Assembly (NCBI GenBank): GCA_025452255.1
Contig: CP104975.1
Location: forward strand, 310,001-374,000
Reading direction: 5' to 3'
Source: Devosia sp. A8/3-2
Lineage (GTDB): Bacteria > Pseudomonadota > Alphaproteobacteria > Rhizobiales > Devosiaceae
Length of the DNA: 64,000 nt
Shown: positions 26,121 to 64,000 of the stretch, piece by piece
Layout: each line of letters opens with the position of its first letter
Numbering within the stretch: the first letter of the stretch is position 1
Notes under the pieces: model-generated
The model's database searches: none
Told to the model about the DNA's origin: nothing
What the model saw: the letters and a program-made list of their open reading frames with translations, nothing else
Position numbers and translations under genes: made by a program

Positions 26121-27124
26121 CTAGGCACTGTCCATCTTCTGAAGACTTCCAGTGAGCACCTTCGTCCGAGGGGGACCACTATAGGTGCCGTTGAGGCGTT
26201 CCAGCAGCATTTTAGTTGCCAAGTTGGCCTGCAGAGCTGGCTGCACCCCGGCACGGGTAAGGTGCGGGCGGATATAGTTCATCTGCGGCTGGTCGCCATA
26301 AACAGCGACAGCAAGGTCTTCGGGAACCTGAACGCCGTGATCGAATAGCCGAGCGATGCCGCCGAGTGTCATCAGATGATTGCCGAAGAACAGCGCCGTG
26401 GGCATGTCCTGCTTGTGCTTCTCAAGCAGCCAGTCGACCCCTTCAATTCCAGATGGCGCGAGGAAAGTACCCTCCCACTCCAGAATGTCATCCGCCGCCG
26501 AGCCACTGTCCAGCAGGCCATTGCGCAGACCGCGTGCGCGGTCCATCGCTTCGCTGAAGAAGTTCGGGCCGGTGATCTGGGCCACGCGGCGGTGACCGCG
26601 TTCTGCTAGATACTTGCCCATTTCATAGCACGCGCTCTCATCGTCGACCCGCAGGCTATCGACGGCCTGATTGGGGAGCTTACCGATAAACACCGTCGGA
26701 ATGTCGATGCTCAGCAAGGCGTCGTGCACGCCATGCAGGGCAAAATCGCCGATGATCAGGCCATCGACCCGCTTGTTGCGAATTTGCCGAAGGTATTCGT
26801 AGACGTGCTCCGGCTATGGCCGCCGGGGACATCGGTGTTGAAGATCAGTGTGTCTAGGCCAACCGCCTCCGAGTCCGTCTGTACTGTTTTGACCAGCTCC
26901 GGATAGAAGGGGTTGCGGATGTCGGGGATGAGCATGGCGACCATATTGGTGCGGCCAGTCCGTAGGCTCTGCGCCTGCAGATTTGGAAAATAGCCCAGTT
27001 CCGCCACTGCCTGCATCACGCGTTCGCGCAGATGCGGGGACACGCGGTCTGCATGATTGAGCACATGCGACACAGTGGTCCGGGATACGCCGGCACGTTC
27101 AGCAACCTTGGAGATCGTTGTCAT
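26121..27124 (-). CDS. LacI family transcriptional regulator (frameshifted)
   Basis: The N-terminal headpiece is MTTISKVAERAGVSRTTVSHVLNHADRVSPHLRERVMQAVAELGYFPNLQAQSLRTGRTNMVAMLIPDIRNPFYPELVKTV. The frame breaks near 26818 and the periplasmic-binding-like domain continues to 26121 (RVDGLIIGDFALHG, ERGHRRVAQITGP, AVAVYGDQPQMNYIRPHLTRAG). Length is about 334 residues. It is divergent from the GH172/ABC operon, with LacI-type operators between them, so it most likely represses that operon until its sugar is present. Confidence 0.9.
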
Positions 27125-27153
27125 AGGTTATTTCGCTAGCACCCATGCGCTGT

Positions 27154-27196
27154 GTTTGCAAATCGGTTTGTGAATGCATTTGCAAACCGATTTTTT
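27154..27196 (+). promoter_or_regulatory. Double LacI-type operator
   Basis: AATCGGTTTG (27161-27170) and CAAACCGATT (27183-27192) form a perfect 10-base inverted repeat. Each arm, preceded by TTTGCAA, is itself a CG-centred LacI half-palindrome. The pair lies between the lacI-type gene and the GH172 operon. Two dimers, or one tetramer, could bind. Confidence 0.6.
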
Positions 27197-27464
27197 GGTG
27201 CTACGGTTTGCTCGTCGGGAACCAATTCCCGGCGGCAGATTGGCTAAACTGACATGAGTGCAGTGCCGAATCGCCTTCAGGGAGAACGATGCATGAGCCT
27301 TTTCGACAGCGCTTAGCGGCGGTTCCACGACCGTAATCATTCATTGGCGACAGTCTCTCTCGACGTTTTTGCAAGCGTCGGTGGCTCCCGTCCTTTCACC
27401 CATGTGCCAGCACTTCGCTGGCCCGTGCTCGCCCTCGCTTTGACCCATTCACTCTGGCAATATC

Positions 27465-34322: not shown

Positions 34323-35420
34323 TTATGGCCGTAACGCCTGCTCTGTTTGGGGATCGAAGATATGGACCTTATCCATATCAATACTCAGCTTCGCCTGCTG
34401 GTTAGGCGACGGTGCGGTATCCGGGTCTACCCTAGCGCACACCACGTCGTTACCGACGCTGAAATAAAGCAAGGTTTCCAGTCCCAACGGCTCGACGATC
34501 TCGACATTGGCTAGGATCGGGGCAGCGCGCGGTCGGCCATTGGGTTGGGTGATCACTTCCGGCCGAATTCCCACAATGACCTTGCGCCCCGCCAAAGGCC
34601 CCGCGCTTGCCCGCATTGACGGTGGCACCGGAAGGCTCGTGCCGTCTGCCAGCACCAGTGTCAGTTCATCCCCAGCGGCAGCAACGCTCGCTGGCAGCAG
34701 GTTCATTGCTGGCGAACCGATAAAGCCGGCCACAAATAGGCTCGACGGGCGATGATAGAGCTCTTGTGGCGGTCCGACCTGCTCGATGCGGCCCTTGTTC
34801 ATTACCACGACGCGATCGGCCATGGTCATGGCTTCGATCTGGTCATGTGTCACGTAAACTGTGGTCGTCGGCAGGGTCTGGTGCAAGCGCTTGATTTCGG
34901 TGCGCATCTGTACGCGCAGCTTGGCGTCAAGATTGGAAAGTGGCTCGTCAAATAGAAACACTTTTGGATTGCGCACGATTGCCCGGCCCATGGCCACGCG
35001 CTGCCGCTGGCCACCCGAAAGCTGGCCGGGGCGCCGGTCTAGGAGTTCGGTAATGTGTAGGGTCTGCGCCGCCGCCACGATCCGTTGCTGAATGTCTGCT
35101 TTTGGCATTTTCTGCTGCTGCAGGCAAAAAGCGATGTTCTCACGCACGCTCATATGGGGATAGAGCGCGTAATTCTGGAACACCATGGCAATATCGCGTT
35201 CACCCGGTCCTAGATTGTTGACCACCCGGTCACCGATGGCGATCTCGCCGCCGCTGATATGCTCGAGCCCGGCGATCATGCGTAGTGTCGTCGACTTGCC
35301 GCAGCCTGAAGGCCCGACCAACACTACGAATTCATTGTCGGCGACTTCAAGGTTGATGCCCCGCACCACCTGATGCTCGTTATAGGCCTTGACCACGTTC
35401 CGAAGAGAAAGCTGAGCCAT
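34323..35420 (-). CDS. Carbohydrate ABC importer ATPase, UgpC/MsmK type
   Basis: This intact 365-residue protein has Walker [17 protein letters not shown], signature [19 protein letters not shown], Walker [21 protein letters not shown], switch [12 protein letters not shown] and a C-terminal TOBE domain ([12 protein letters not shown], then VGIRPEVI). It is the last gene of the operon read leftwards from 40470 and starts 9 bases after GH127. It drives the permeases encoded at 37382-39147. Confidence 0.93.
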
Positions 35421-35429
35421 GCTGGTTTC

Positions 35430-37356
35430 CTATTTCTCGCGCAACCAAACGAGCATGCCGCCGGCTTGTCGGTTGGCCCATAGGTGATAGGGGATCGCAT
35501 TGAGTGAAGTTGCTTCGGTTTTCGGTTGTTCGCGGCGATAAAGTTGCCCGGCCCAGTCCGCGTCGCTGGTTTTAGTAGCCAATGCCGAAAGCCGCACTGC
35601 GCCGCCGAGCAAGCCGGGGTCAAATGCCGCTGCGATTTCTGCGTCGGCCGGTAGCGCCAGCAATTGGGGCGCAAACCCCAGATCGGCCTCTTCCGCGCAA
35701 TAGACCACTGGCCCACGCTTCAACGCCACCCGCCCGGCATCCTCGCTGGCCAACGGATGAGCATAAAGTCGCTCGACCGGCATGTCGAAGCCGATCCGCA
35801 CCACGTCGCCGGCCGCCCATTGGCGAGCAATGGCCAGATAACCCTTTTCAGCGGCAGCAGTATCTATCCCCTCTCCGTTCACGGTCACGCTGGCCTTGTT
35901 ACACCAGCCCGGCATACGCAGACGTAGCGTGAAAGGCATCGGCGCCGCAGGTGCAAGGGTCAGCGCGATATCGCCATCCCAAGGATAAGACGTTTCTTGT
36001 GATATCCGTACAATCTGTCCACCGATCTCGGCTTCGGCCGTGTTGGCGCCGTACAGATGGACCGCCAATTCATCTGACTTGATCGTGTAAAAATAGCTGC
36101 CCAGCGAGGCGATCAGGCGGGCGATATTGGTGGGGCAGCACGGACAATAATGCCATTTCCAGCGCCGGTGCTGGCCATGGCTTTCCAGCACATTCTCATA
36201 AAAATAGTGCTCGCCATCGCGCGCAATGCCGGACAGCGCGCCGTTGAAAATTGCCAGTTCAACATGGTCGGTGAAGCGCGAGTCCAGCTCGATCTGGGCC
36301 ATGCGATGCCCCCAGAAGGCCAGGGCCACCGCCGCGCAGGTCTCGGCATAGGCAGTCTCATTTGGCAGGTCGTATTCGTGGGTAAACCCTTCATTGGCGC
36401 CCGAGGGCCCCAGCCCGCCTGTGACGTAAAGCTGCCGTCCGGTGAGGTTGTCGAAGAGCCTGTCACAGGCGGCCGAGGAGCGTTAGATCGCTAGTTTCGT
36501 AGGCGAGGTCCGCCATGGCCGAGAACAGATACATGGCCCGCACCGCGTGGCCCACCACCCGGTTCTGCTCGCGTACCGGCATATGGGCCCGGCTGTAGGC
36601 ATAGGTCTGGTAGTGGTAATTGGCAGGATCATCACCCCGCCGCCGCGCTTCCTCGTCGTAATAGGAGGGCATCTGGCCGCGCTCATCGACGAAATACTGT
36701 GCAAGCTTGAGATGCTTGGGATCCTTGGTCACGCGATAGAGCTTGATCAGCGCCAGCTCGATCTCCTCATGCGCGTCGTAGCCGCGCAATTTACCCGGCT
36801 CGCGGCCGAAGGTGGCATCGATATGATCGACCGCTTTGATCATCACATCCAAAAAAGCCCGCTTACCGGTAGCTTCGAAATAGGCCACCGCTCCTTCGAG
36901 CAAATGCCCCATGGAGTACATTTCATGCAGGTCGCGCAGATTGGTCCAGCGCTTGTCCGGTTCACGGCGAATGAACCAGGAATTAAGGTAGCCGTCCGCC
37001 ATCTGCCCTTGGGCGAGTTTTTTGACGATGTCATCGATCTTTGCTTCCAGCGCCGGATTGGGATGGGCCTTTAGCGTATAGCTCGCTGCCTCGATCCACT
37101 TGCCGAAATCGCTGTCGAAGAAGTGCTGCATCGAAAGCCCACTGGGTTGGATCGGCCGGGCCAATGGCCACGGTGGCTGGTCGAAATTGAGCACCTCGAG
37201 AAAGCGCTCTTCATCGAGCCGTCTGTGCTGGCTGGGCACCGTCACCTCGCGCACCGTTTGGCTCCAGCTTTCCCAGAAGCCGCCGGCGAAATCGACCTTG
37301 GCATGATCGACGGGAACATAGCGCTCAATGCGCGGGGGATTGGACAGATCGGTCAT
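35430..37356 (-). CDS. Glycoside hydrolase family 127, beta-L-arabinofuranosidase-like (frameshifted)
   Basis: The N-terminal catalytic barrel starts IERYVPVDHAKVDFAGGFWESWSQTVREVTVPSQHRRL, with GQMADGYLNSWF and LRDLHEMYSMGHLLEGAVAYFEATG. After a break near 36475 come LYVTGGLGPS and NETAYAETCAAVALAFWGHRM, then CPCCPTNIARLIASLGSYFY. These hold the Glu/Cys and CC residues that bind zinc and provide the cysteine nucleophile in GH127. Length is about 641 residues, with no signal peptide. GH127 enzymes release L-arabinose from hydroxyproline-linked beta-L-arabinofuranosides of extensin. The neighbouring importer presumably supplies the substrate. Confidence 0.9.
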
Positions 37357-37381: not shown

Positions 37382-38242
37382 TCATTTGACGGCGCCAGCC
37401 GTCATGCCGCGCACGTAATAGCGTTGCAGCAACAGGAAGAGGACGAGGCAGGGGATCATGGTGACCGTGACGCCGGCCTGCAGAGCGCCCCAGTCGATAA
37501 TGCCGTAGATGCCGGATGAGACATTCACCAGCATGATGGGCAGAGTGAACTTGTTCTGGTCGGAGAGGAAAATCAGCGCCGCCAGAATTCGTTCCAAGAA
37601 TTGAGAAAGGCAAAGAGTGCCACCGTGGCTACCCCGGCAGGGCAATAGGCACCATGATGCGGCGCAGAATGGTCCATTGGGAGGCCCCATCGATCCGCGC
37701 CGCCTCGATCAGTGCCTTAGGCACGGCATCGAAGGCATTGCGCATCATGAAGATCGAAAAGGCAACTGGAACGTGGTGTAGATCAGCACCAGCCCCAACA
37801 GGTTGTTCTGCAGCTTGAGCAAGTTGAGGATCAGGAATAACGGCGTCAGAATGGACTGGAACGGAATCATCATTGTTGCCATCAAGGCGACGAATAGGAT
37901 TGTCTGACCGGGAAAGCGAAACTTGGAAAAGCCATAGCCGGCCGGCACCGCGATCAGCACGGTCAGCAGGACCGTCCCCAACGCGATCATCACCGAATTG
38001 CCGGCATAGACATACCAGCCCGCTCCCACCCCTTCGAGGCGACGGTAATTGTCGAGCGAAAAAGCTCTGCTGAACAGGGCAAGCGGATTGGCCAACGCCT
38101 CGGCGGGCGGCTTGAAGGAATTGGCAACCGACCAGATCATAGGCATCAGGAACAGCACGGCTAAAATACTGGCCACGACATAAAAGGCTGCCAGACCCAA
38201 CCGCTCCCGGCGCGAGGGACCATTGCTAATCAGATCGCTCAT
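37382..38242 (-). CDS. Carbohydrate ABC permease, MalG/UgpE type (frameshifted)
   Basis: The N-terminal half is FYVVASILAVLFLMPMIWSVANSFKPPAEA, VPAGYGFSKFRFPGQTILFVALMATMMIPFQSILTPLF. After breaks near 37755 and 37620 the EAA loop (ALIEAARIDGASQWTILRRIMVPIALP) and the ending QRYYVRGMTAGAVK are found in other frames. About 286 residues with six helices. The start overlaps the stop of the partner permease (38242). Confidence 0.85.
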
Positions 38243-40567: not shown

Positions 40568-40579
40568 GAAAGCGCTTTC
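40568..40579 (+). promoter_or_regulatory. LacI-type operator
   Basis: GAAAGCGCTTTC is a perfect 12-base CG-centred palindrome of the LacI/PurR class. It lies upstream of both the sugar importer operon (minus strand) and the lacI-type gene at 40718. Confidence 0.65.
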
Positions 40580-51750: not shown

Positions 51751-51768
51751 TTCTGTCGACAAACAGAA
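51751..51768 (+). promoter_or_regulatory. Degenerate GntR-type palindrome before the DapA-family gene
   Basis: TTCTGT-N6-ACAGAA is a perfect inverted repeat at 51751-51768. It contains the core TGTCGACA (51754-51761) shared with the TTGTCGACAA sites, and lies 73 bases before the start at 51841. It fits the proposed regulon but differs at one flank. Confidence 0.45.
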
Positions 51769-51840: not shown

Positions 51841-52798
51841 ATGAACACTGAGATCTTTACCGGCGTAATCCCGGCCCTGATGACCCCATGCAAGCTCGAT
51901 CGTTCGCCCGACTTCGATGAACTGGTGCGCAAGGCTCAGGAGCTGATCGCAGCCGGCATGTCAGCCGTGGTCTATTGCGGCTCGATGGGGGACTGGCCAT
52001 TGCTGACCGATGCCCAGCGGCAGGAAGGCGTCGAACGTCTGGTACAGGCTGGCCTGCCGGTAATCGTGGGCACAGGCGCCGTCAATTCCGCGTCGGCCGT
52101 GGCTCTTGCCACCCATGCCCAGAAAATTGGCGCCGCTGGTCTGATGGTCATCCCGCGCGTCCTCTCACGCGGCAATTCTGCGACCGCGCAACGGCACCAT
52201 TTTGAGGCCATCCTGGCAGCGGCACCGGACTTGCCGGCCGTGATCTATAACAGTCCCCATTATGGCTTCGAGACCAAGGCCGACCTATTCTTTGCCCTGC
52301 GCGCCAAATACAGGAACTCGGTGGGCTTCAAGGAATTCGGTGGCCCGGCCACGATGACCTATGCTGCCGAGCACATTACCAGCGGCGATGACACCGTCAT
52401 CCTGATGGCTGGTGTCGATACCGGCGTCTATCACGGCTATGTCAAGGCAGGCGCGACCGGCACGATCACCGGCATAGGCAATGCCCTGCCCAATGAAATC
52501 CTCCATCTGGTGGCCTTGTCCAAGGCCGCCGCTGCCAGCGATACCGATGCGCGGACCCGCGCCCGGGAATTGGGCGAGGCACTCGATGTGCTGTCGAGCT
52601 GGGACGAAGGCACCGACACGGTGCTCTATTACAAGTATATGCTCGAGCTGAAAGGCGAGGCTGCCTACAAGCTGCATTTCAATGCGACCGACGAACTGTC
52701 GGCTAGCCAACGCGCCTCGGGCCAAGACGCAGTTCGAGCAGTTCAATACACGGTACGCCGCACTGGAGCCAGTTACCCGGCGCCGTCCAGACCACTAA
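51841..52798 (+). CDS. DapA-family protein, probable 1-pyrroline-4-hydroxy-2-carboxylate deaminase (frameshifted tail)
   Basis: ATG 51841 begins MNTEIFTGVIPALMTPCKLDRSPDFDELVRKAQELIAAGMSAVVYCGSMGDWPLLTDAQRQEGVERLV. The Schiff-base lysine is in SVGFKEFGGPA. The segments GVDTGVYHGYVKAGATGTITGIGN and SSWDEGTDTVLYYKYMLELKGE resemble the hydroxyproline-pathway deaminase (HypD-type) more than true dihydrodipicolinate synthase. The tail shifts frame near 52725 and ends KTQFEQFNTRYAALEP..RPDH at 52798, giving about 318 residues. This enzyme would turn 1-pyrroline-4-hydroxy-2-carboxylate into 2-oxoglutarate semialdehyde. Subfamily assignment is from memory of motifs. Confidence 0.8.
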
Positions 52799-52867: not shown

Positions 52868-53904
52868 TCAGTCGATTGCCGCCAGCCCGAGCGCCGCCAG
52901 GGCAATCGAGATGCTGCAGCTCGGCTTCCGTCAGCACGATGCCATCGGTCTGGGCCTTGCGCCGCGCCGCGAACCGGCGGTGCGACGGCAGTCGGGCGCC
53001 CTGCCCTGCAATGGCTTCGAACAGTGTTTCAGCGCGGGCAAACGGGGCCCCGGGGCGATCGGCGGCGAAACGCTCCGGAGAGAACGCGATGATCAGCTCG
53101 CCATGGGCGGGCGATAGTGTTGTTGTCCCAAGCGCCTCGAGCGCACCGGCACTGGTCAGATCACCGATCATCACGCCGGCGAGAAGCTCGATCATCGTGC
53201 TCATCGCCGATCCCTTGTGTCCGCCAAACGGCAGCATGGCGCCGGCAAGGGCCGCTTCGGGCGAGGTGGTGGGCTCGCCCTGTGCGTCGATGGCCCATCC
53301 CTCCGGGAGCGGCTTCCCGGCGCGGCGATACAGCTCGATTTCACCGCGCGCCGCAACCGACGTCGCAAAGTCGAAGACATAGGGCTCGGCCCGTTGCCGA
53401 GGCCAGCCAAAGGCAAAGGGATTGGTGCCGAACAACGGCTCGCTGCCGCCCTGAGGGTGCGACGGTGGCATAGCTGGGGCACATGACCATGGCCGCCAAA
53501 CCGTGGGCCGTCACGGCTTCCACTTCCGGCCACAGCGCTGAAAAATGCGTGCAATCGTTGATCACCATCGCGGCAAGGCCGAGCGTCTTGGCCCGTTGGA
53601 CCAGCAGCGGGAGGCCTAGTTCGAAGGCGGGGCTGGAAAAGCCGTGCTGTCCATCAATCCGGACAATGGCGCCGTCTCCGAGATCGGCAATCGTCGGCCG
53701 GACATCGCCCCGGACTTTGCCCGCCTTGAGCGTGCGCAACACGCCTTCGATGCGAAAAATGCCATGCGACTTGCAGGCATCTCGTTCGCCGGCGGCAATA
53801 ACCCGGCTCACGGCATCGGCCCGGACATCACTCATGCCGGCGCCAATAAAGATTGCGGAGATGCGGTCATGCAAGTCGGCAAAGGCAATCGCGGTGCCGC
53901 TCAT
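52868..53904 (-). CDS. Ldh2/malate-L-lactate dehydrogenase family oxidoreductase (frameshifted)
   Basis: The N-terminus is MSGTAIAFADLHDRISAIFIGAGMSDVRADAVSRVIAAGERDACKSHGIFRIEGVLRTLKAG. The middle part GLAAMVINDCTHFSALWPEVEAVTAHGLAAMVMCPSY is typical of this NAD(P)-dependent family. After a break near 53465 come GGSEPLFGTNPFAFGWPRQ, YVFDFATSVAARGEIELYRRAGKPLPEGWAID and MLPFGGHKGSAMSTMIELLAGVM. The natural end ALAALGLAAID lies in another frame at 52868. Family members include delta1-pyrroline/piperideine-2-carboxylate reductases, which fits the proline-related context. Confidence 0.85.
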
Positions 53905-54213: not shown

Positions 54214-54242
54214 TTGTCGACAATTTGGATACGAGCTAGCAT
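54214..54242 (+). promoter_or_regulatory. Promoter with TTGTCGACAA operator over the -35 box
   Basis: TTGTCG (54214-54219) and TAGCAT (54237-54242) are spaced by 17 bases. The palindrome TTGTCGACAA covers the first box. The 19 bases CTTGTCGACAATTTGGATA are identical to those at the hydantoinase promoter (60926-60944). A repressor bound here would block the operon that starts at 54265. Confidence 0.65.
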
Positions 54243-54264: not shown

Positions 54265-54774
54265 GTGATTAGTATAGGCCTTATCGACGAGTTCATGGCG
54301 AGCGTTCGCCGCCCCGGCGTGACTGCCTTCGACCTGATCGGCGGCGTCGGCAGGATGCTGCATGAGACGATCGGCACTAGGCTCCTAACGGCGTCGGTCT
54401 ATGACATGGAGGCCGGCCAGTCCAAGCGCGTCTATTCAGAAAATCTCGACGCCTATCCACTGGCCGGGCTCAAGCCCATCCTGGAGAACCGCTATACGGA
54501 GATCGTGTTGCGCCGGCACCAGATCTTCCACACTATGCGCATCGAAGAGATCGCCGAAGTCTTCGCCGACTGGCCGCTGATTCAGTCGCTGGGCAACGAA
54601 TCCAATGCCAATATTCCTGTTGTCGTCGATGGCAAGGTCATCGGCACCCTGAACCTGCTGCATAAGGCCGGCTACTATACCGCCGAGCGTCTCGCGCCGG
54701 CCGCCGCGCTGTTGCCCTACGCCACCATCGCCTTCCAGCACTCGGCAAAGTCGCTCCACGAGGCGAGCGATTGA
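54265..54774 (+). CDS. GAF domain protein
   Basis: This intact 169-residue protein comprises MISIGLIDEFMASVRRPGVTAFDLIGGVGRMLHETIGTRLLTASVYDMEAGQSKRVYSEN...GNESNANIPVVVDGKVIGTLNLLHKAGYYTAERLAPAAALLPYATIAF, a complete GAF fold. It has no output domain, so it may bind a small ligand and act as a sensor or as an enzyme of the small GAF reductase type. It is the first gene behind the promoter at 54214 and precedes an Rbs-type importer. Confidence 0.8.
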   Translation: MISIGLIDEFMASVRRPGVTAFDLIGGVGRMLHETIGTRLLTASVYDMEAGQSKRVYSENLDAYPLAGLKPILENRYTEIVLRRHQIFHTMRIEEIAEVFADWPLIQSLGNESNANIPVVVDGKVIGTLNLLHKAGYYTAERLAPAAALLPYATIAFQHSAKSLHEASD

Positions 54775-54878
54775 TGCTGTCCACGTCCGCCTAAAGCAAA
54801 GGACTGGCACCCCGCCGGCCTCAATCAGGAGAATGTCGGTGGGAATTGGGAACCGCCGATCCAACAAGGGAAAGAACC

Positions 54879-55874
54879 ATGAAACTACGTGCTGCATTGC
54901 TGACCAGCGTTGCATTTGCCGGTGTCGCGGCCGTCCTGCCTGCCGCGGCGCAGGATCCGTTCCACATCGCCTATCTCGCCTCCTCCAGCCAGAACGGCTA
55001 CAATCAGGCCATCTTCGCCGGCATCCGAGAAGCGGCGGCCGAAAAAGGCGTCGAAGTCGAGATCTTTGACGGCGCGTTTGACTCCACAGTGCAGTTTTCG
55101 CAGGTCGAAGACGTGGTGGCCGGCGGCCGTTTCTGACGCCTTCATCGTCACCCCCAACGACACTGTGGGCATTGCCCCAGCGCTGGAAGACGCCACCGCT
55201 GCAGGAATCACGGTCGCCACGACCCTGTTCCCGGTCGGCCCCGACCTCACCAATATGGAACCGCAGGTTCCGAGTCTCACTACCACGGTTGCCGCCAACC
55301 CTGCCGACGGCGCGTGCCCGAGGCCGAGGCGGTTGCCGAATACTGCGCCGACAAGGACCCTTGCCGGGTTGCAGTCATCATCGGCCAGCTAATCTATCCG
55401 TTCGACAACCTGCGCAACGAAACCTTCAAGGAAGTGCTGGCGCAGCACTCGAACATCCAGATCGTTGCGACCGGCGAGGGAAATTACGATCCTGACGCGT
55501 CGCTGACCGCCATGCAGGACATCCTGCAGGCCAATCCCGAAATCGATGCCGTGCTGTCCAACGCCGACCAGCACCTGATCGGCGCCGAAATCGCGCTCAG
55601 CGACTTCGGCTACGAGCCCGGTTCGGTCTACATGATCGGCGGCGGCCTCAACCAGATCACGGTCGACGCCATCCGCGCCGGCACCGTTTCGGCCACGCTG
55701 GCCGAAGTGCCGCACAGCATGGGCAAGGCTGCGCTTGAAGCGGTGGTTACCACGCTAGAAGGCGGCACCGCGCCGACGTGGATCAACCCCAATGATCTGG
55801 TCGAAACGCCGGTGATCGTCACCAAGGAATGGCTCGACGCCCATCCGGATTTCGTCGCCGAATGGCAGGGCTGA
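54879..55874 (+). CDS. Rbs-type ABC substrate-binding protein (frameshifted)
   Basis: A GGGAAAG site precedes ATG 54879. The signal peptide MKLRAALLTSVAFAGVAAVLPAAAQ is followed by DPFHIAYLASSSQNGYNQAIFAGIREAAAEKGVEVEIFDGAFDSTVQFSQVEDVVAGG, the standard start of a periplasmic-binding-protein-4 domain. Breaks near 55128 and 55315 precede EAVAEYCADKDPCRVAVIIGQLIYPFDNLRNETFKEVL and NADQHLIGAEIALSDFG. About 331 residues. The ligand may be a sugar, polyol or cyclic metabolite; it cannot be read from sequence. Confidence 0.87.
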
Positions 55875-55944
55875 CCGCCTTTGCAACAGTCGGGCGGGAC
55901 CACGTGGCCCCTCCCATTCTCCACCCTAGCGGAGGTTCGTTGCC

Positions 55945-57488
55945 ATGGTAACAAACGGGACGACGACGTCGGTGCGGCTGTCGGGTGTCGAGAAGAGCTT
56001 CGGCTCCAGCAAGATACTGCATGACATCACGCTCGATTTCCGGGCCGGCGAAGTGCATGCTCTGATCGGCGAGAACGGCGCGGGCAAATCCAGCGTTGGC
56101 AAGATCATCGGCGGCTATTATTCGGCCGACCGCGGCGAGGTCGAAATCTCGGGCACCCCGCTCGACCAGTCGACACCGCGCCGCGCGCTGCAACTGGGCG
56201 TGGCTATGATCCACCGGGAATTGCAGCTCGTGCCGCAACTGTCCGTGGCTGAGAATGTGTTTCTCGGCCTCGAAGCCAATGTCGCCGGGCTGCTGAACGG
56301 CTCTGACAACAAGCGCTTCGCCGTGCTGGAAGAACGGTGTCGCTTCGGTCTCGATCCGCGCCGCAAGGCCGAGGACCTCTCCATTGCCGACCGACAGAAG
56401 GTCGAGATCATGCGCGCCATTGCGCGCGATGCCCGCATCATCATCATGGACGAGCCGACCTCATCGCTGACGGCCGACGAAGCCGAGCGACTGCACCGGG
56501 TCATCGCCGATCTTCGGGCGCAGGGGCGCACCATCATCTACGTCACCCATTTCCTTGACCACGTGCTAGCCGCCTGCGACCGCGTCACCATCATGCGCGA
56601 CGGCCGCGTGGTGCGCACCGGCGATATTGCGGGCGAGACTAAGCAAAGTCTCGTGGAGGCCATGCTCGGCAAGAGCGCCGAGGTCGCCTATCCCGACCTG
56701 CCGGCGCGGCCCGATGCATCGGCTGCCCCGCGCATCGCCATGAGCGGCGTCAGCACCCATGCCGGCATTCGCGATATCAACATCGCCATCCGTCCGGGCG
56801 AGGTCGTGGGCCTCGTGGGCTCGGTCGGTTCGGGCCGCAGCGAAGTTGCCCGCGCCCTGTTCGGTGCGGACAAGACGCTGACCGGCACGATCACCCCGGA
56901 CGGCGAGGACCTGCCCAAGCTGACCCCTAAGGAAGCGGTGCGGCGCGGCATCGCCTTCATTCCAGAAGACCGCCGCAAGCAGGGCCTCAACTCGGTACAG
57001 CGCACAAGACCCAATATGAGCCTACCCCATCTCGGCCAGATCAGCCGCTTCGGCTTTCTCGACATGGGCGAGGAACGCCGCCGCACCAAGGCGATGATCG
57101 AGCATTTCGGCATCTCCCCGCCGGCATCGATGGCGAAGTGGCCTATTATTCAGGCGGCAACCAGCAAAAGGTGCTGCTGTCCAAATGGGCCTATGGCAAG
57201 CCGCGCGTCGTCATCCTCGACGAGCCCAGCCGCGGAGTCGATATCGGTGCCCGCCGCCGTATCCACGATTTCATCGTCGAACTCGCACAGACCGGCGCAG
57301 CCGTGCTGCTGATCTCCTCCGAACTGGAGGAGGTGCTGAACCTGTCGCATCGCGCTTATCTGATGAGCCGGGGCGAGATCATCGGCGAGGTCGAGAGTGA
57401 CGCTATCAGTGTTGAAGATGCGCTGTTCCGCCTCTTCAACGTCCAGAAGGCACAAGAGCAAGCTGCGCTTCTGCCCGAACAAGGTTGA
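55945..57488 (+). CDS. Rbs-type ABC ATPase with two nucleotide-binding domains (frameshifted)
   Basis: The first domain has Walker A GENGAGKSS, a signature-like LSIADRQKVEIMRAIA and Walker B IIIMDEPTSSLT. The second has the usual degenerate Walker A GSVGSGRSEVARALFG, EDRRKQGL, then after a break near 57120 YYSGGNQQKVLLSKWAYGKPRVVILDEPSRGVDIGARRRIHDFI. About 514 residues, as expected for RbsA/MglA. It stands between the binding protein and the permease. Confidence 0.9.
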
Positions 57489-57493
57489 AACCC

Positions 57494-58468
57494 ATGGCCG
57501 AACCCCAAGTCACCGCCCCAGCCGCGCCGACCCGCAGCACTTTCGTGCTCAGCGACTTCCTGCGCGAATATGGCATTCTCATCATCATCGCGCTACTGAT
57601 GATCGGCCTGACCCCGGTCAGCCCGTCCTTCCTCTCGTCGCGCAACCTGCTCAACATCCTCAACCAGAGTGCGCCGCTGGCCCTGATTGCCGCGGCACTG
57701 ACCCCGGTAATCATCAGCGGCGGCTTCGATCTGTCGACGGGCGCCATATTCGGAGTGGCCAGCGTCTCTGCCGCCCGGCTTGCGGTCAACGTCGACCCCA
57801 CCCCGGGCATGATCGCCGGACCGCTGCTCGGCATGATGCTCGGCGTGATCAATGGCCTCATCATAACCGGCTTCAACGTTCACTCGTTTCTGGCCACCCC
57901 GGCATCGAGCATGGTCTATCGCGGCATCGCGGTCCTGATCACCGGCGGTGCGCTGATCCCGGTGCGCATGGAGGAATTCACTCGGCTGGGCCGTGGCCGC
58001 GTGGGCGTGGTCAACGTCGCCGTGCTCATTCTGCTGGTCTTCACCGTAGCCATGATGGTCCTGCTCAACCGCACCACGTTCGGTCGCCGTGTCATCGCCG
58101 TGGGCGGCAACGAGGAAGCCGCGATCTTGTCCGGTGTGCGGACCAAGCTGGTGCGGATCGCCTGCTTCGGCCTCACCGGCTTTGCCGCCGGCCCGGCAGG
58201 CATCATTGCGGTGTCGCGCATTTCCATGGGCCAGCCCCAAGCCGGCGTCGGCCTCGAACTCGAGGCCATCGCCGCCGTCATTCTGGGCGGCACTAGCATT
58301 TATGGTGGCGCCGGCGCGGTCTGGCGGTCCATTGCCGGCGTGCTGCTGCTGGCCCTGATCGGCAACGGCTTCAACATCCTCAACGTCAACCCGTTCTTCA
58401 AAGACCTGACCACTGGCGTCATTATCGTGGTTGCTGTTGCCCTGAGCGCAGGTAAAAAGCGCAGATAG
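57494..58468 (+). CDS. Rbs-type ABC permease
   Basis: ATG 57494 is preferred over the TTG at 57485, which overlaps the ATPase stop. The intact 324-residue protein has the RbsC pattern: FLSSRNLLNILNQSAPLALIAAALTPVIISGGFDLSTGAIFGVASV, GVINGLIITGFNVHSFLATPASSMVYRGIAVLI, GRRVIAVGGNEEAAILSGV and AVILGGTSIYGGAGAVWRSIAGVLLLALIGNGFNIL. Eight or more hydrophobic segments. Confidence 0.92.
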   Translation: MAEPQVTAPAAPTRSTFVLSDFLREYGILIIIALLMIGLTPVSPSFLSSRNLLNILNQSAPLALIAAALTPVIISGGFDLSTGAIFGVASVSAARLAVNVDPTPGMIAGPLLGMMLGVINGLIITGFNVHSFLATPASSMVYRGIAVLITGGALIPVRMEEFTRLGRGRVGVVNVAVLILLVFTVAMMVLLNRTTFGRRVIAVGGNEEAAILSGVRTKLVRIACFGLTGFAAGPAGIIAVSRISMGQPQAGVGLELEAIAAVILGGTSIYGGAGAVWRSIAGVLLLALIGNGFNILNVNPFFKDLTTGVIIVVAVALSAGKKRR

Positions 58469-58496: not shown

Positions 58497-59222
58497 ATGA
58501 AGGCGAAGGATGACGAAAACGGCTCCGTGAAGGGCCGAGTACGGGGGCAAGGCGCTCGCACCGTCTATGACACGTTGCGCACGGCCATTCTCGATCTCAG
58601 CCTCGAACCGGGCAGCCCGCTCGACGAAATGACGCTGTCCGAGCGCTTCGACATGTCCTGTACCCCGATCCGCGAGGCCCTCGTGCGGCTGGTGGCCGAG
58701 GGGCTGGCCAAGACCCTGCCCAATCGCAATACGGTGGTGGCCACCATCGATTTCGATCAATTGCCGGTCTATTTCGAAGCGCTGACTCTAATGTATCGCG
58801 TGACCACGCGTTCGGCAGCGGTGCATTGGCGCGACGAGCATATGCACGACATCCGCCAGCATGCGGCCAGTTATGCCGAGACGGTCCGGCAACATGACGC
58901 GCTGGGCATGATCCAGACCAACCGCGATTTCCACATGGCCATCGCCACGGCAGGCGGAAATTCTTATTTCACCGCACTGTTCGGGCGCCTGCTCGACGAA
59001 GGTCGCCGTATCCTCAGGCTCTACTACCGCTCCTTCGACGACAACCTGCCCCGTCGCTATGTCAATGAGCATGAGGAGATGCTCCTCGCCATCGAAAGCC
59101 GCGATGCCGAGCGGGCCGATACGCTGGCTGCCGAACATGCCGCCCAGATCGTCAAGCAGATCCAGAGCTATATCGCTCGCGCGACGGTCACGGGCATCTC
59201 CCTCGAAACGGATCGGATCTGA
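58497..59222 (+). CDS. GntR family regulator, FCD subfamily
   Basis: This intact 241-residue protein has the winged helix TVYDTLRTAILDLSLEPGSPLDEMTLSERFDMSCTPIREALVRLVAEGLAKTLPNRNTVVATI. The FCD ligand domain follows, with metal-binding positions in TNRDFHMAIATAGGNSYFTALFGRLL, RYVNEHEEMLLAIESRDAERADTLAAEHAAQI. FCD GntR proteins commonly bind TTGTNNACAA-type palindromes, matching the TTGTCGACAA sites in this window. The stop overlaps the start of the FAD oxidoreductase, so the regulator is co-expressed with a probable catabolic target. Ligand unknown; a hydroxyproline-derived compound is plausible. Confidence 0.92.
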   Translation: MKAKDDENGSVKGRVRGQGARTVYDTLRTAILDLSLEPGSPLDEMTLSERFDMSCTPIREALVRLVAEGLAKTLPNRNTVVATIDFDQLPVYFEALTLMYRVTTRSAAVHWRDEHMHDIRQHAASYAETVRQHDALGMIQTNRDFHMAIATAGGNSYFTALFGRLLDEGRRILRLYYRSFDDNLPRRYVNEHEEMLLAIESRDAERADTLAAEHAAQIVKQIQSYIARATVTGISLETDRI

Positions 59223-60454
59223 TGGTGAGGATAGCAGTCGTCGGCGCAGGCATTGTCGGCGCCACCATCGCCGCGCGCCGGTCAACGATGGTCACGCGGT
59301 CACGGTCTATGAGCCCGAGATCGACGGCCTGCCCACCTCATCGGGTAATGCGGCGCTGATCGCCCTACCCGAGATTGCCCCGATCGCCAGCCCGGGCATT
59401 CTGACCGCGGTGCCCAAGTGGCTGCTGGATCCGCTCGGGCCGCTGACCGTGCGCTGGACCGACGTGCCGGCCTTGCTGCCCCGGTTGCTCGCCTTCCTCG
59501 CCTCCGCGACTCCGGCCAAGGGCGCCAAGGCCCGCGCTGCGCTAACACTGCTGATGCGCACGGCCCTGCAGGACCATCAGGCGCTGGGACAGAGCATCGG
59601 CCTCACCGACCATCTGCGCCAGACCGGCTACATCGCCCTGCACGACAACGAGGGCTCGCTCGCATCAGGGCTGGGCGAAGCGGCAGCGGTAAGGTCGCTG
59701 CTCGGCTACGACTATGAGCGCCTGTCGGCCGACGCCGCGCGCAAGCTCGTGCCGCAGCTCGAGGGGATGTTCGCGGGCGCGATCTACCAGCCCTACTATT
59801 GGGCGGTGACCAACCCGCTGACTGTGTTGCGCGCCTATCAGAGCTATCTCCGCGACCGGGCAATTCTGGTCACAGAGAAGGTCTCGCGGCTGTCAGCGCG
59901 ATACCGAAGGTATCCTGGTTCACACGCCCAGAGGCCAGTCGCGGTTCTGACAAGGTCGTCGTGGCGGCAGGGGTGTGGTCACGCGACTCGGTGCGCAGCC
60001 TCGGCGCCCGGGTGCTGCTCGAGACCGAGCGCGGCTACAATACGACCTATACTGACCTCGACTGGAATTTCGCCATGCCGGTCGGCTTTGCCGATCACGG
60101 CTTCATCGCCACCCCCCGGTCGATGGCCTGAGGGTCGGAGGCGCGGTCGAGCTCGCCAAACCCGATACCGGTCCCAATTTCGGCCGCGCCAAGGCCATGC
60201 GGACCAAGATGCGCCGCTATGTCCCCAGCCTGCCCGAAGGTGGCAAGGAATGGATGGGACGTCGCCCATCGACGCCGGATTCGCTGCCGGTGATCAGCAC
60301 GCATCCCGGCGACGAGCGCATCATCTATGCCTTCGGCCACGGCCATCTGGGCCTGACGTTGAGCGCGGTGACCGCGCGGCTGGTTGCGGAATTGGCAGGC
60401 GAAGGACCCGCCAATCCCGATGTGGCGCCCTTCAGTATCGGGCGCTTCCAGTAA
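59222..60454 (+). CDS. DadA-like FAD-dependent oxidoreductase, candidate D-hydroxyproline oxidase (frameshifted)
   Basis: ATG 59222 overlaps the GntR stop. The dinucleotide motif VVGAGIVGATIAA is followed, after a base loss near 59278, by RRVNDGHAVTVYEPEIDGLPTSSGNAALIALPEIAPIASPGIL. FAD-domain segments KVVVAAGVWSRDSVRSLGARVLLETERGY and, near the end, GRRPSTPDSLPVISTHPGDERIIYAFGHGHLGLTLSAVTARLVAELAG are characteristic of D-amino-acid dehydrogenases. Other breaks lie near 59905 and 60125. About 410 residues. In hydroxyproline pathways this family oxidises cis-4-hydroxy-D-proline to the pyrroline used by the DapA-family deaminase. Confidence 0.85.
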
Positions 60455-60926: not shown

Positions 60927-60955
60927 TTGTCGACAATTTGGATATTCCATAGGAT
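60927..60955 (+). promoter_or_regulatory. Promoter with TTGTCGACAA operator over the -35 box, hydantoinase operon
   Basis: TTGTCG (60927-60932) and TAGGAT (60950-60955) are 17 bases apart. The palindrome and following bases repeat those at 54213-54231 exactly for 19 bases. It lies 56 bases before the hydantoinase A start and is the best sign that this operon and the one at 54265 share one repressor. Confidence 0.65.
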
Positions 60956-61010
60956 GATGGCTAGCAACCACCCGCCGGGGTGGAGGGAACGACGCAAACC
61001 GGATTATTGC

Positions 61011-63088
61011 ATGACCAAGCGCGACACGATCACCCGGATCGCCACTGACGTGGGCGGTACGTTTACCGACCTCGTCTATTTCAGAAACGGACAGGGCCAC
61101 CGGCCGCCAGACCGTACGGACCGAAAAGTCCGACACGACGCCTCCCAATTTCGAACAGGGCGTGCTCAACGTCATCAAGAAGGCCGGGCTCAGCGTCGCC
61201 GAAGCCGACTTCTTCGCCCATGGCACGACGGTGGTGATCAATGCGCTGACCGAGCGTAAGGGGGCCAAAGTGGGCCTGATCACCACTGACGGTTTCCACG
61301 ATATCCTCGAGATCGCGCGTGGCAACCGTCCCGATTTTTTCAATCTCTCCTACGAAAAGCCGACGCCATTCGTGGAGCGCTACCTGCGCCGAGTCGTGCC
61401 CGGCCGCATGAACTACAGCGGCGAAGAGGTCGCCCCGCTCGACCTGAGCGGCCTGCCCGCCATCCCGGAGGCCTTCCGAGCCGACGGCGTCCGGAGCCGT
61501 GGCCATCTGCCTGATCCACGCCTATGCCAATCCGGCGCATGAAAAGGCCGTGCAGGCCGAGATCGCACGCCTATGGCCCGAGGTCGCGACCGTCGCCTCG
61601 CACCAGATCACGCGCGAATGGCGTGAATACGAGCGCACTAGCACCACCGTGCTCTCGGCCTATGTGCAGCCCACCGCGCAGCGCTATCTGGAACGCCTCG
61701 AAGCCGGCCTGCAACAGGAAGGCTACGAGGGTCGCCTCTACATCATGCAGTCCAATTGCGGCGTCGACTCGCTGGCCTCGACCAAGGCCATTCCGATCAC
61801 CATGGTGGAATCGGGTCCCGCCTCCGGCTTCTGGGGCGCAGCGGAACTGGGGCGCATCATCGGCGAACCCAATGTGCTGGCGCTCGATATCGGCGGCACG
61901 ACCGCGAAATGCTCGCTGATCCAGAACGGCCGAGTCACCATCAAGACCGACTACTGGATCGAGCGCGACCGCCGGAGCGCCGGCTATCCCATCATGGTGC
62001 CGGTCGTGGACCCGGTGGAAATCGGCAATGGCGGTGGTTCGATCGCTCGGGTCGATGATTTCAGCAAGCTGCATGTCGGCCCGCAATCGGCCGGCGCCAT
62101 GCCCGGCCCGGCCGCCTATGGCCGCGGCGGCGCCAATGCCACCACGACCGACGCCAATCTGGTGCTGGGGCGGATCAACCGCGACTATTTCTGTGGTGGC
62201 TCGGTCACCGCCGACATGGCGTCGGTCGACAGCGCCCTCGGCACCCTAGCGGACAAGCTGGGCGTCAGCCAGCAGGAAGCGGCGCGCGGCATCGTGCGCA
62301 TCGCCAATGCTAACATGGTCAATGCGCTCAAGCTCGTCTCGCTCAACCGCGGCCACGACCCACGCGACTTTACGCTGGTGGTGTTCGGCGGCGGCGGCGC
62401 CATGCATGGCGTGGCGCTCGGTCAGGAACTGGGCGTCAAGAAGGTCGTTGTGCCGCGCGGCGCACCGGTTTTCTCGGCCCGGGGCATGATGATGAGCGAC
62501 CTGCGCCACGACTATTTCGTCACTCGCCTGATGGACGGCACCGACCGTTCCGGTCTGCAGGCACTGGTGAGCGAGATCGCCGGCCATGCCACCGAACAGT
62601 TCGGCAAGGAGGAGGTCGCGCCCGACGCGGTCAAGATCCAGCCCCTGGTCAAGATGCGTTACCGCAATCAGGAGCATTCGGTCGAGGTCCCGCTGCGGAC
62701 CGACCTGCTCGACGACGCCAGCATGGCGATCCTGATCGAGGATTTCCACGCCATCTATGAGCGCGAATACACCTATCGCCTCGATGTCGCCGTCGAGATC
62801 GTGGGCATCCACGTCATCGCCTCGGCCGAGGTCGGCAAGCTCGAAATGGTGGCCCAGCAGCGCACTAGCGCCGGGCTCGAAGACGCCATCAAGGGCAGGC
62901 GCGAGGTGGATTATGCCACCGAGGGCGTGTGCGAAGCGACAATCTACAATGCCGAACTGCTGGAACCGGGCATGAGCTTTACCGGCCCGGCCATTATCGA
63001 AGACCCCGGCACCACCATCGTCATCCATCCCGGTAACCGGGTCGAGATCGACGATTTCGGCAACACCCAAATCCATCTGCGGAGCTGA
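61011..63088 (+). CDS. Hydantoinase/oxoprolinase subunit A (frameshifted)
   Basis: ATG 61011 begins MTKRDTITRIATDVGGTFTDLVYF, the N-terminal phosphate-binding loop of HyuA. A break near 61095 precedes FEQGVLNVIKKAGLSVAEADFFAHGTTVVINALTERKGAKVGLITTDGFHDILEIARGNRPD. Another near 61495 leads to AICLIHAYANPAHEKAV and the second ATP-binding loop VLALDIGGTTAKCSLI, then LVVFGGGGAMHGVALGQELGVKKVVVPRGAPVFSARGM. About 692 residues. These ATP-dependent enzymes open cyclic amides such as 5-oxoproline or hydantoins together with subunit B. Confidence 0.92.
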
Positions 63089-63091
63089 TCG

Positions 63092-64000
63092 ATGAGCACG
63101 ATCTCCCACGATCCCGTTACCTTCGACATCATCCAGAACGGCCTTGAAGCTGTCGCCGACGAGATGTTCGCGGCCCAGCGCAAGACCTCGATGAGCGCCA
63201 TCATCTATGAAGTGCTCGATTTGGGCACCGGCATCTGCGACGCCTGGGGCGAGATCGCCGCCTCCGGCGCCGGCATCCCGGCCTTTGTCGGCGTGCTCGA
63301 CAAGGCCGTCAAACGCATGATCGAGAAACACCCGGTCGAAACCATCAAGCCCGGCGACCTGTTTGCCTCCAACGACCCCTATTGGGGCGGCGTGACCCAC
63401 CTCAACGACATGATCCCGGCCATGCCAGTATTTGCCGATGGCAAGATCGTCGCTCGGACGGCCAATATCGCGCACTGGAACGATGTGGGCGGCAATGTTC
63501 CCGGCTCGATGTCATCGGAAGCCACCGAAATCTACCGAGAGGGCATCCGTATCCCGGCGGTCAAGCTGATCGATGCCGGCGTCCCCAACCGAGCCGTGTT
63601 CGACATTCTCTACGTCAATACCCGTCTGCCCGACTTCCTGCGGGGCGACCTGTGGGCCGGCATTGCCGGCGTGCGGATCGGGGAAAAGCGCATTCTCGAA
63701 ATGATCGAGAAATACGGCTCGGAAACCTTTACCGCCGCCATCGCCGATTTCATGGATTTGGGGGAGCGCCGCGCCTGCGCGGCCCTCGCCACCATCAAGA
63801 AGGGCGTTTATCCATTCGAGGAAGAACAGGACAATGGCGACATTCACAAGATCGTCGTCGAAATCACCGATGACGCCTTCATCATCGATCTGCGCGACAA
63901 TCCCGACCAGAAAGGCTCGAGCAATTCGAGCCGCGAAGGCATCGAGATTTCCGCCCAGCTCGCCTTCAAGGCCTTCACCGACACTCAGGCGCCGGGCAAT
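63092..64000 (+). CDS. Hydantoinase/oxoprolinase subunit B, partial (runs off the window)
   Basis: ATG 63092 lies 3 bases after the subunit A stop. The frame is open for 303 codons to the window end with no break. It contains DPVTFDIIQNGLEAVADEMFAAQRKTSMSAIIYEVLDLGTGICDAWGEIAASGAGIPAFVGVLDKAV, KPGDLFASNDPYWGGVTHLNDMIPAMPVFADGKIVARTANIAHWNDVGGNVPGSM, and DDAFIIDLRDNPDQKGSSNSSREG, all typical of HyuB (normally 500-600 residues). It forms the catalytic complex with subunit A. Confidence 0.93.
   Translation, partial: MSTISHDPVTFDIIQNGLEAVADEMFAAQRKTSMSAIIYEVLDLGTGICDAWGEIAASGAGIPAFVGVLDKAVKRMIEKHPVETIKPGDLFASNDPYWGGVTHLNDMIPAMPVFADGKIVARTANIAHWNDVGGNVPGSMSSEATEIYREGIRIPAVKLIDAGVPNRAVFDILYVNTRLPDFLRGDLWAGIAGVRIGEKRILEMIEKYGSETFTAAIADFMDLGERRACAALATIKKGVYPFEEEQDNGDIHKIVVEITDDAFIIDLRDNPDQKGSSNSSREGIEISAQLAFKAFTDTQAPGN

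Follow-up and report, generated by a model that had tools for sequence, protein, structure and literature searches.

A 64,000-nucleotide stretch of the genome of Devosia sp. A8/3-2, referred to below as the window (positions 310001-374000 of contig C2, CP104975.1, which has a length of 515 kb in a genome of 4.55 Mb), carries what is probably a catabolic regulon under HypR control, directed at plant peptides rich in hydroxyproline and arabinosylated, i.e., extensin-type glycopeptides. The genes fall into three blocks. Block A (34.3-41.7 kb) encodes a LacI-family regulator, a CUT1 sugar importer, a GH127 β-L-arabinofuranosidase-family enzyme and an ATPase; block B (41.8-50.6 kb) encodes an M24 Xaa-Pro aminopeptidase, a peptide importer (the SBP_bac_5 binding protein, SBP5, with Dpp components) and an S33 hydrolase; block C encodes the deaminase HypD, an Ldh2-family reductase, a GAF-like protein, an RbsB-RbsA-RbsC importer, a HypR-type GntR regulator, a DadA-type oxidase, HyuA, HyuB and, past the right edge of the window, a proline-racemase-family protein. 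A single predicted operator would link the removal of arabinose, the cleavage of peptides and the breakdown of imino acids in Devosia. Gene content, protein families, operator sharing and recurrent linkage were established by computation. An earlier note on this DNA had proposed such an integrated arabinose, peptide and hydroxyproline (Hyp) system, including a GH172 enzyme and a RidA protein; the core of the proposal stands through the shared operator, the re-linkage of the genes elsewhere and a negative control, while GH172 and RidA drop out of it.

The assembly is 84% complete, and frameshifts cut many genes within the window and elsewhere. The gene pieces of the window are colinear with, and 71-99% identical to, genes of relatives (61-65% for the LacI-family regulator, by tblastn), and most of the frameshifted genes exist intact there; pervasive frameshifts in colinear genes, found in the window and at L109/L110, suggest an error-prone assembly rather than decay. 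Since the window genes are frameshifted, annotation was made on the relatives' copies. The compared genomes (G numbers; their loci carry L numbers) are a sample: for G055 and G023 the matching strains are Devosia sp. FKR38 and CJK-A8-3, and for G006 it is D. neptuniae A18/4-1, a Vicia root-nodule strain with both halves of the system on a 532,786-bp plasmid.

A palindrome shared by the three blocks

A palindrome scan over 31 chosen upstream regions, from this genome and from relatives, ranked TTTGTC/GACAAA first, with occurrences in 17 of them. The window contains six matches to the palindrome with at most one mismatch, against 1.21 ± 1.17 expected, and six are reached in 0/100 shuffles; five of the six sit at promoters of system genes (Table 1) and the sixth, at 22587, elsewhere. 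The shared palindrome announced in the earlier note is thus real, but it is not tied to GH172, as no match lies near 27 kb. In the whole genome, WTTGTCGACAA is found at six distinct places, i.e., the four exact window sites and two on contig C1 around a second Hyp locus, and about 2.4 copies of the exact 10-mer are expected from base composition. In G006 and G082 this second locus reads DapA-like / 4HypE-DadA-GntR / LysR (4HypE, 4-hydroxyproline epimerase), with one site upstream of the DapA-like gene and another separating GntR from LysR; its 4HypE in G006 has a Cys/Cys dyad and scores 563 bits, above the NCBIfam cut-off of 376.

The same motif marks known hyp loci. In Sinorhizobium meliloti one exact copy stops 12 bp short of the GntR (HypR) gene and another lies between hypR and hypD; in Paracoccus an exact copy precedes hypD. 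HypR is described as a repressor of the S. meliloti hyp genes with Hyp as inducer (PMC5343134), and FadR-subfamily regulators as binding TKGT/ACMA (PMC6608401), which TTGT-CG-ACAA fits. The palindrome TTTGTCGACAAA is the predicted operator to which HypR itself would bind. At the GH127 promoter a LacI-type palindrome, GAAAGCGCTTTC, lies 7 bp from the HypR-type copy, TTGTCGACAA, an arrangement that suggests joint sensing of sugar and imino acid.

Recurrent linkage in other genomes

Flanking genes were counted at 80 of the 81 confirmed loci of the clade of this GH127, a set that spans the order and is phylogenetically non-independent, and at GH127 paralogue loci as controls (an initial 20 and later 61 out of about 69, all from Devosia and chosen before their flanks were read). 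Within 10 kb, a proline peptidase was found at 48 clade loci, a Hyp catabolic gene at 11 and either at 52 (51 in a cluster-based count), the figure of 52/80 having been obtained with some references taken from the case loci themselves (M24 of L123, ProR/DadA of Kaistia and ProR of Martelella); with Devosia-only references the figure is 44/80. Among the controls such genes appeared at 0/20 and then 1/61 loci, and the single positive, L283 of G082, lies beside the system itself (52/80 vs 1/61, Fisher 8e-17, kinship ignored). At L283 (G082:C1:25401-45300), the GH127 paralogue and the CUT1-type importer that belongs to it lie some 5 kb from the system's S33 gene.

The operator follows the same distribution. 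Exact TTGTCGACAA has 22 matches in 14/80 case loci, 21 of them intergenic, and one match in the 61 control loci. The relaxed form YTGTCGACAR has 62 matches in 44/80 case loci, of which 52 are intergenic despite 89% coding sequence, and six matches in 5/61 controls; in the case loci it lies beside the starts of genes for CUT1 (19), LacI divergent from CUT1 (14), GntR (13), the DHDPS family (9), M24 of two kinds (8), SBP5 (7), HypD (4) and a few others.

A separate proximity test concerned PF05544, the proline racemase family, and covered 31 of 68 GH127-positive genomes together with six from a separate Devosia search, clade membership being set at >950 bits in the search that gave the 68 or at least 84% identity in the Devosia search. 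A PF05544 gene lies at most 3.3 kb from a clade GH127 in 7/19 genomes (G055, G023, G065, G446, G314, G434 and G387), which represent at least three arrangements and not seven independent events; in the 18 genomes holding other GH127 clades only, none lies within 10 kb (the nearest at 19.7 kb, and some pairs on different contigs). A HypR-type GntR is present in 19/19 genomes with the GH127 clade, a count for which no background rate was run. Within Devosia, the GH127 orthologue (at least 84%) occurs in 9/75 genomes, and a HypD orthologue (at least 66%) accompanies it in eight of those nine, G070 being the exception, versus 8/66 of the others (Fisher 6e-6).

The comparison of synteny called for in the earlier note returned the same genes re-linked in other arrangements. 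In G023 and G055 the blocks are fused: M24-GH127-epimerase run on one strand (with gaps of 31 and 55 bp in G023), divergent from GntR-DadA-SBP5-DppDF-DppC-DppB-S33, and a HypD-like gene lies elsewhere in the genome. In these two genomes and in G082, CUT1 is not beside this GH127. G065 has GH127 adjoining DadA-GntR-HypD and a further PF05544 gene at a distance of 3.2 kb. HypD and the CUT1-GH127 unit run divergently in G063, and G006 and G078 have blocks A and B side by side, with block C at another site. Outside Devosia, Marinibacterium carries a co-directional GntR-HypD-ProR-DadA-like (37%)-CUT1-GH127-ATPase-S33 run with an operator before HypD, and in Martelella (L167) HypD, ProR, CUT1-GH127 and SBP5 occur together, an exact operator being present at each of HypD, CUT1 and SBP5. 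Three Kaistia genomes have GH127-DadA-ProR, one of them with an additional 310-aa gene and a divergent GntR, and Brucella endophytica has CUT1-GH127-ATPase-SBP5-Dpp-S33-M24. On plasmid pRL10 of Rhizobium johnstonii (leguminosarum) 3841, LacI-CUT1-GH127-UgpC is accompanied by a DHDPS-family gene, a GntR regulator (60% to S. meliloti HypR), an alpha/beta hydrolase and an Xaa-Pro peptidase, and a one-mismatch operator, CTGTCGACAA, lies between the GntR and DHDPS genes.

Gene content of the blocks

The GH127 enzyme with an ABC importer, reported in the earlier note, is present in block A. Its catalytic, middle and C-terminal domains (PF07944, PF20736 and PF20737) all exceed their cut-offs in the G055 orthologue. 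The best match in the Protein Data Bank (PDB) is 4qjy, a Geobacillus enzyme; HypBA1 (3wkw) scores 393 bits with its Glu and Cys residues aligned, and E322, E338, C340, C404, C406 and C407 (G055 numbering) are invariant across six orthologues, presumably corresponding to the catalytic and metal residues of HypBA1. A signal peptide is not apparent by eye at the GH127 N-termini, and deglycosylation is therefore placed in the cytoplasm. The enzyme would remove β-linked L-arabinofuranose from its putative substrates, arabinosyl-hydroxyproline (Ara-Hyp) or β-arabinobiose (β-Ara2). The CUT1 binding protein (D. neptuniae orthologue) matches PDB 6lce with 194 bits, versus 102 bits for the next structure; 6LCE is the β-arabinobiose-binding protein of Bifidobacterium longum, reported to bind β-Ara2 only (PMC8106489). 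Proteins similar to this GH127 (E ≤1e-150) also occur in three plasmid records of Escherichia.

The Xaa-Pro aminopeptidase-like protein, Dpp importer and proline-iminopeptidase-like protein were likewise recovered, in block B, as M24, SBP_bac_5 with DppDF/C/B, and S33. Taking the G055 orthologues, M24 is closest to human XPNPEP1 (3ctz, 370 bits), and the S33 hydrolase has 8jgn (Arabidopsis AT3g61540) as best PDB match with 327 bits, resembles proline iminopeptidases weakly and gives a weak NCBIfam prolyl aminopeptidase match. Between the S33 hydrolase and HypD, a small ORF (51103-51540, minus strand) has a signal-peptide-like start and belongs to no Pfam family, and was rejected as a candidate for RidA. 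The RidA assignment of the earlier note does not hold, as the 11 PF01042 matches of the genome all lie outside the window.

The HypD-like deaminase, DadA-like oxidase and Ldh2-family reductase are all present in block C. The hydroxyproline-clade placement that the earlier note had made decisive is borne out for HypD, whose G006 orthologue shares 72% identity with the hyp-locus protein of S. meliloti and 83% with that of Paracoccus, but less so for the oxidase, with just 39% to that of the S. meliloti hyp locus, all of these being pairwise identities. The G043 orthologue of HypD matches PDB 4mpq/2hmc/5czj with 501-510 bits versus 81 for the next structure, and other DHDPS types (304 aa on C1; 303 aa in Rhizobium) have about 27-33% identity to HypD. 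The HypR-type regulator contains the Pfam domains GntR and FCD (G055 orthologue), and its G006 orthologue is 58% identical to the S. meliloti hyp-locus GntR (HypR) and 61% to that of Paracoccus, both of which adjoin hypD. The window pieces of the oxidase are 79-89% identical to the G043 copy, and the G055 copy is 73% identical to the oxidase of the second Hyp locus within the genus; the cluster copy is absent in G006 and G082, where a second DadA stands at the other Hyp locus.

The HyuA/HyuB pair, the Rbs-type importer and the GAF-like protein lie near the same operator and are conserved in G006, G043 and G082. Their closest curated families, in each case below cut-off, are the caprolactamase CapA/CapB of NCBIfam for HyuA/HyuB (window; L097:4442-8173) and the L-arabinose AraG/AraH for the Rbs-type ATPase and permease. 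An M17 gene located between Ldh2 and the GAF gene in relatives is absent here (~53955; ~1.28 kb less than G006). This 482-aa gene had been considered as the missing aldehyde dehydrogenase and was discarded on being identified as a leucyl-aminopeptidase-family protein. In two Devosia, a tryptophan-halogenase-family gene (Pfam, G023 copy; L107:8892-10433, and L108 in G055) adjoins a second HypD-like gene.

Table 1. Features of the three blocks and predicted regulatory sites, in window coordinates.
Feature	Position	Strand	Remarks
MsmX/UgpC-type ATPase of CUT1 importer	34329..35420	-	97.5% to D. neptuniae gene, annotated UgpC there
GH127 β-L-arabinofuranosidase-family enzyme	35433..37356	-	One frameshift; PF07944 family via G055 orthologue
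Two CUT1 permeases	37385..39147	-	tblastn with D. neptuniae orthologues
CUT1 sugar-binding protein	39220..40470	-	99%-identical D. neptuniae orthologue, closest PDB 6lce
Predicted HypR-type operator TTGTCGACAA, exact	40551..40560		Before CUT1-GH127 operon
LacI-type palindrome GAAAGCGCTTTC	40568..40579		7 bp from HypR-type operator
LacI-family regulator, frameshifted	40749..41734	+	Divergent from CUT1; tblastn 61-65% to G070 orthologue (Pfam LacI)
M24 Xaa-Pro aminopeptidase (XPNPEP1-like), frameshifted	41756..43545	-	Pfam M24 + Creatinase_N + C, G055 orthologue
Predicted HypR-type operator, exact	43601..43610		Divergent M24 / SBP5-Dpp promoter
SBP_bac_5 peptide-binding protein	43707..45457	+	G055 orthologue
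DppDF (fused ATPases), DppC, DppB	45538..49276	+	G055 orthologues
S33 alpha/beta hydrolase, prolyl-aminopeptidase type	49289..50588	+	Abhydrolase_1 over cut-off, G055 orthologue
Predicted HypR-type operator, one mismatch	51753..51762		Before HypD
HypD, pyrroline-4-hydroxy-2-carboxylate deaminase clade of DHDPS family	51841..52716	+	G006 orthologue 93% to window
Ldh2-family reductase	52905..53904	-	Orthologue 73-75% to S. meliloti/Paracoccus hyp-locus Ldh proteins
Predicted HypR-type operator, exact	54214..54223		Before GAF-RbsBAC-GntR-DadA run
GAF-like protein and RbsB/RbsA/RbsC-type importer	54265..58465	+	GAF_2 just under its cut-off
HypR-type GntR/FCD regulator	58497..59219	+	G006 orthologue 94% to window
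DadA-type FAD oxidase, putative cis-4-hydroxy-D-proline oxidase, frameshifted	59222..60451	+	Pfam DAO (G055 orthologue)
Predicted HypR-type operator, exact	60927..60936		Before HyuA-HyuB-epimerase
HyuA/HyuB pair (caprolactamase/oxoprolinase-like)	61011..64000	+	After HypR-type operator, just before epimerase gene
Proline-racemase-family putative 4-hydroxyproline epimerase	64807-65812		0.8 kb right of window edge

Proposed mechanism and alternative explanations

Extensin is the most likely, though not the sole possible, source of arabinosylated hydroxyproline. As regards the substrates, the binding by HypR, its inducer and the flow of the regulon, we infer the following scheme. Fragments of hydroxyproline-rich glycoproteins (HRGPs) and β-arabinosides would arise outside the cell; the CUT1 importer would take up β-Ara2 or small Ara-Hyp pieces and the Dpp importer (glyco)peptides, which the latter could import directly where CUT1 is not beside GH127 (G023, G055 and G082). 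In the cytoplasm, GH127 would remove β-linked L-arabinofuranose, and the Xaa-Pro aminopeptidase and the S33 prolyl-aminopeptidase-type hydrolase would free proline and Hyp. The 4-Hyp epimerase, DadA-type oxidase and HypD would then convert trans-4-hydroxy-L-proline into 2-oxoglutarate semialdehyde. Acting at TTTGTCGACAAA, HypR would keep the promoters repressed as long as a signal derived from Hyp is absent, and the GH127 promoter may read sugar and imino acid together.

Several results weigh against a single regulon of this kind. Neither a peptidase nor a Hyp neighbour was found at 28/80 clade loci, and in G006 and G082 the Hyp genes are 80-150 kb from GH127. The share of WTTGTCGACAA places that fall at system promoters is 6/11 in G006, 3/8 in G082, 2/6 in G023, 2/6 in G055 (with another inside GH127), 3/14 in G043 and 0/7 in G065, the last having its own Hyp-GH127 cluster without an exact operator copy. 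Fourteen of the relatives' operator places outside the clusters were inspected; 11 are inside genes and three are intergenic, one of the latter being followed by a permease-like gene. The GH127-CUT1 promoter of G070 keeps the LacI-type site and has no HypR-type operator at up to two mismatches; in this genome the HypR gene and the GH127-CUT1 locus are present, and a HypD orthologue was not found. No operator was found at the Kaistia locus L176. An extracellular GH121/GH43 partner is lacking among the window genes scanned, GH43 domains being present elsewhere in the genome and GH121 not having been searched.

The last step of the pathway also counts among these difficulties. An aldehyde dehydrogenase expected in the earlier note beside the cluster is not there: a 2-oxoglutarate-semialdehyde (KGSA) dehydrogenase is missing from it, since the 25 PF00171 matches all lie on C1 and none on C2. 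A remote KGSA dehydrogenase-like gene on C1 (488 bits here and 540 in D. neptuniae, against a cut-off of 770) is 90-97% conserved in six relatives. It was rejected as the hyp-locus dehydrogenase, as it follows an FAA-hydrolase-family gene (in D. neptuniae) and is 28-30% identical to the Paracoccus hyp-locus dehydrogenase; this neighbourhood would hint at a pair for the oxidation of pentoses. 2-Oxoglutarate semialdehyde is also the product in which oxidative routes for pentoses end, one of them for L-arabinose, and therefore one dehydrogenase could serve both halves of arabinosyl-hydroxyproline.

The 28 loci and the G070 promoter would be more easily accommodated if the HypR regulon served Hyp/Pro peptides, and GH127 and its importer served unrelated β-L-arabinofuranosides (pectin, free β-Ara2) within a plant-polymer hotspot on a secondary replicon, as would the many Rhizobium loci that hold GH127 with LacI, CUT1 and ATPase only, and the identity of the best solved GH127 relative, 4qjy. 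We regard this as unlikely, because the HypR-type operator stands directly at the CUT1-GH127 promoter in this genome, in D. neptuniae and in Martelella, and the relaxed motif is intergenic before a CUT1 gene in 19 cases. Furthermore, GH127 is flanked by M24 and the epimerase in G023/G055 and shares a single run with HypD/ProR in Marinibacterium; among the paralogue loci the count is 1/61.

A second alternative concerns the imino acid: the branch might handle trans-3-hydroxyproline (t3Hyp), by means of a dehydratase (t3HypD) and an Ldh2-type pyrroline-2-carboxylate reductase, instead of or besides trans-4-hydroxyproline. The protein on which this depends is the epimerase that the earlier note had supposed to lie beyond 64 kb, where a proline-racemase-family gene is indeed located (Table 1). 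By the criterion adopted, a 4HypE belongs to the proline racemase family and has a Cys/Cys or Ser/Cys dyad, not Ser/Thr or Cys/Thr (PMC4113996, where UniProt labels are swapped in places). The best solved relative of the protein is PDB 4LB0, the 4-hydroxyproline 2-epimerase of Agrobacterium vitis with a Ser/Cys dyad, whereas t3HypD has Ser/Thr (PMC4113996), and Ser/Cys is found in 9/9 window-type copies, G075 included. Two scores are unfavourable to 4HypE and add to the points against a trans-4-hydroxyproline route: the window-type protein (G023 copy) misses the NCBIfam 4-Hyp epimerase cut-off (238 bits vs 376), and its best NCBIfam is the trans-3-hydroxyproline dehydratase T3LHypDht, with 373 bits, both being below cut-off. 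It is also 45% identical to the annotated t3HypD of S. meliloti vs 35% to its 4HypE; MLD2/Ldh2 enzymes near such genes are described as reducing proline ketimine, and one Ser-type cluster as functionally mixed (PMC4113996). Nevertheless, we judge the t3Hyp route quite improbable. Besides the dyad, DadA and HypD, which t3Hyp would not need, accompany the protein in G075, G067, G054 and G043, the same operator stands at the second locus with its Cys/Cys 4HypE above cut-off, and the Hyp of extensin is C4-hydroxyproline (PMC5371791). In G055 and G023 the racemase-family gene is the sole PF05544 match in the genome, so that its product would be expected to act as the epimerase if these strains use 4-Hyp by way of DadA. 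The window-type protein is treated as a putative enzyme working like 4-hydroxyproline epimerase and not as an established member of that family.

That unrelated catabolic operons came to lie together on one replicon by chance is very improbable: the arrangement is not conserved, with pieces apart in G006, G078 and G082, and relatives hold operator places outside these loci, but 6/6 operator places of this genome fall in these loci, and re-linkage recurs in at least three other arrangements against 1/61 in the control.

Comparison with known systems

The HypR-controlled glycopeptide regulon proposed here shares parts with several systems. The HRGP system of B. longum (HypAA, HypBA2, HypBA1 and the importer BLLJ_0208-0210) also has a CUT1 importer adjoining an intracellular GH127, and its 6LCE is the closest structure to the Devosia sugar-binding protein; as described, it covers arabinose use only, without Hyp catabolism, proline peptidases, Dpp or HypR control (PMC7263609), whereas the Devosia cluster is without the extracellular GH121/GH43 partner among the genes scanned. 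The S. meliloti hyp locus has in common the HypR-type GntR, HypD, Ldh2, oxidase, epimerase and an identical palindrome before hypR/hypD; unlike in Devosia, its importer is of the amino-acid (PAAT) type, and neither a GH127 nor a peptidase is listed in 29 kb of the PLSDB gene table, which is incomplete. The HypR regulons described in Alteromonadales (collagenases, proline peptidases, peptide permease) likewise reach polymer and peptides, but there the polymer is animal collagen, and Devosia, with a glycosidase and a sugar importer, would represent a plant glycoprotein version (PMC5343134). Xanthomonas euvesicatoria (XeHypBA1/BA2/AA) has a GH127 acting on Ara-Hyp and a prolyl-oligopeptidase gene beside xehypAA; in contrast to Devosia, this GH127 is extracellular, L-arabinose is unused, and the description includes no importer or Hyp catabolism (PMC6085000). 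In Latescibacteria single-cell genomes, GH127 has been assigned to extensin arabinose together with ABC importers for sugar and oligopeptides, in the form of a gene list in which no shared operon, operator or Hyp catabolism is described (PMC4454575).

The HRGP systems found described harvest arabinose, and the described Hyp regulons begin at free Hyp or collagen. In titles and abstract openings, among the matches listed and with subscription papers mostly outside, nothing joins GH127 or arabinose removal with Hyp catabolism or HypR. The regulon would provide a genetic definition of the way in which bacteria could exploit the carbon and nitrogen of plant extensin. It allows direct tests of what becomes of extensin at roots, with a specific operator and knock-out targets in laboratory rhizobia, and suggests what a large GH127 clade of Hyphomicrobiales, so far annotated by domain alone, may do.

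A more speculative extension, to which we assign a low probability, is that rhizobia and nodule Devosia consume or inactivate arabinosylated Hyp glycopeptides at the plant interface, either infection-thread extensins, which may be a food, or nodulation-suppressing CLE peptides. It is raised because the GH127 importer locus, HypR-type regulator, proline peptidases and one-mismatch operator sit on the nodulation plasmid pRL10; if true, the trait would be a symbiosis function, not only scavenging. Plasmid pRL10 carries most nodulation and fixation genes of strain 3841 (PMC3333776), and tri-arabinosylated CLE peptides are reported to suppress nodulation in pea (PMC8012813). The arabinofuranosidase of the R. 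leguminosarum rhizosphere transcriptome was considered as the pRL10 gene and rejected, as it is pRL110282, on another plasmid (PMC3333776).

The GH172-type locus and other neighbouring genes

The GH172 enzyme with an importer does exist, as the earlier note had stated, in the form of a DUF2961 protein at 27.7-28.6 kb (DUF2961 being taken here as GH172-type) with a peptide-type ABC importer; together with its own LacI-type regulator, it occupies window positions 26121-34085. As a part of the system it was rejected: there is no HypR-type operator near 27 kb, and the relatives' stretches compared have no similarity to this stretch. The papers on GH172 concern, as far as described, α-D-fructofuranosides and D-arabinan, and the locus is perhaps a separate system for α-fructofuranosides or D-arabinofuranosides. 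Further to the left, a fragment of a HipA-like protein is located at 8420-9436 of the window.

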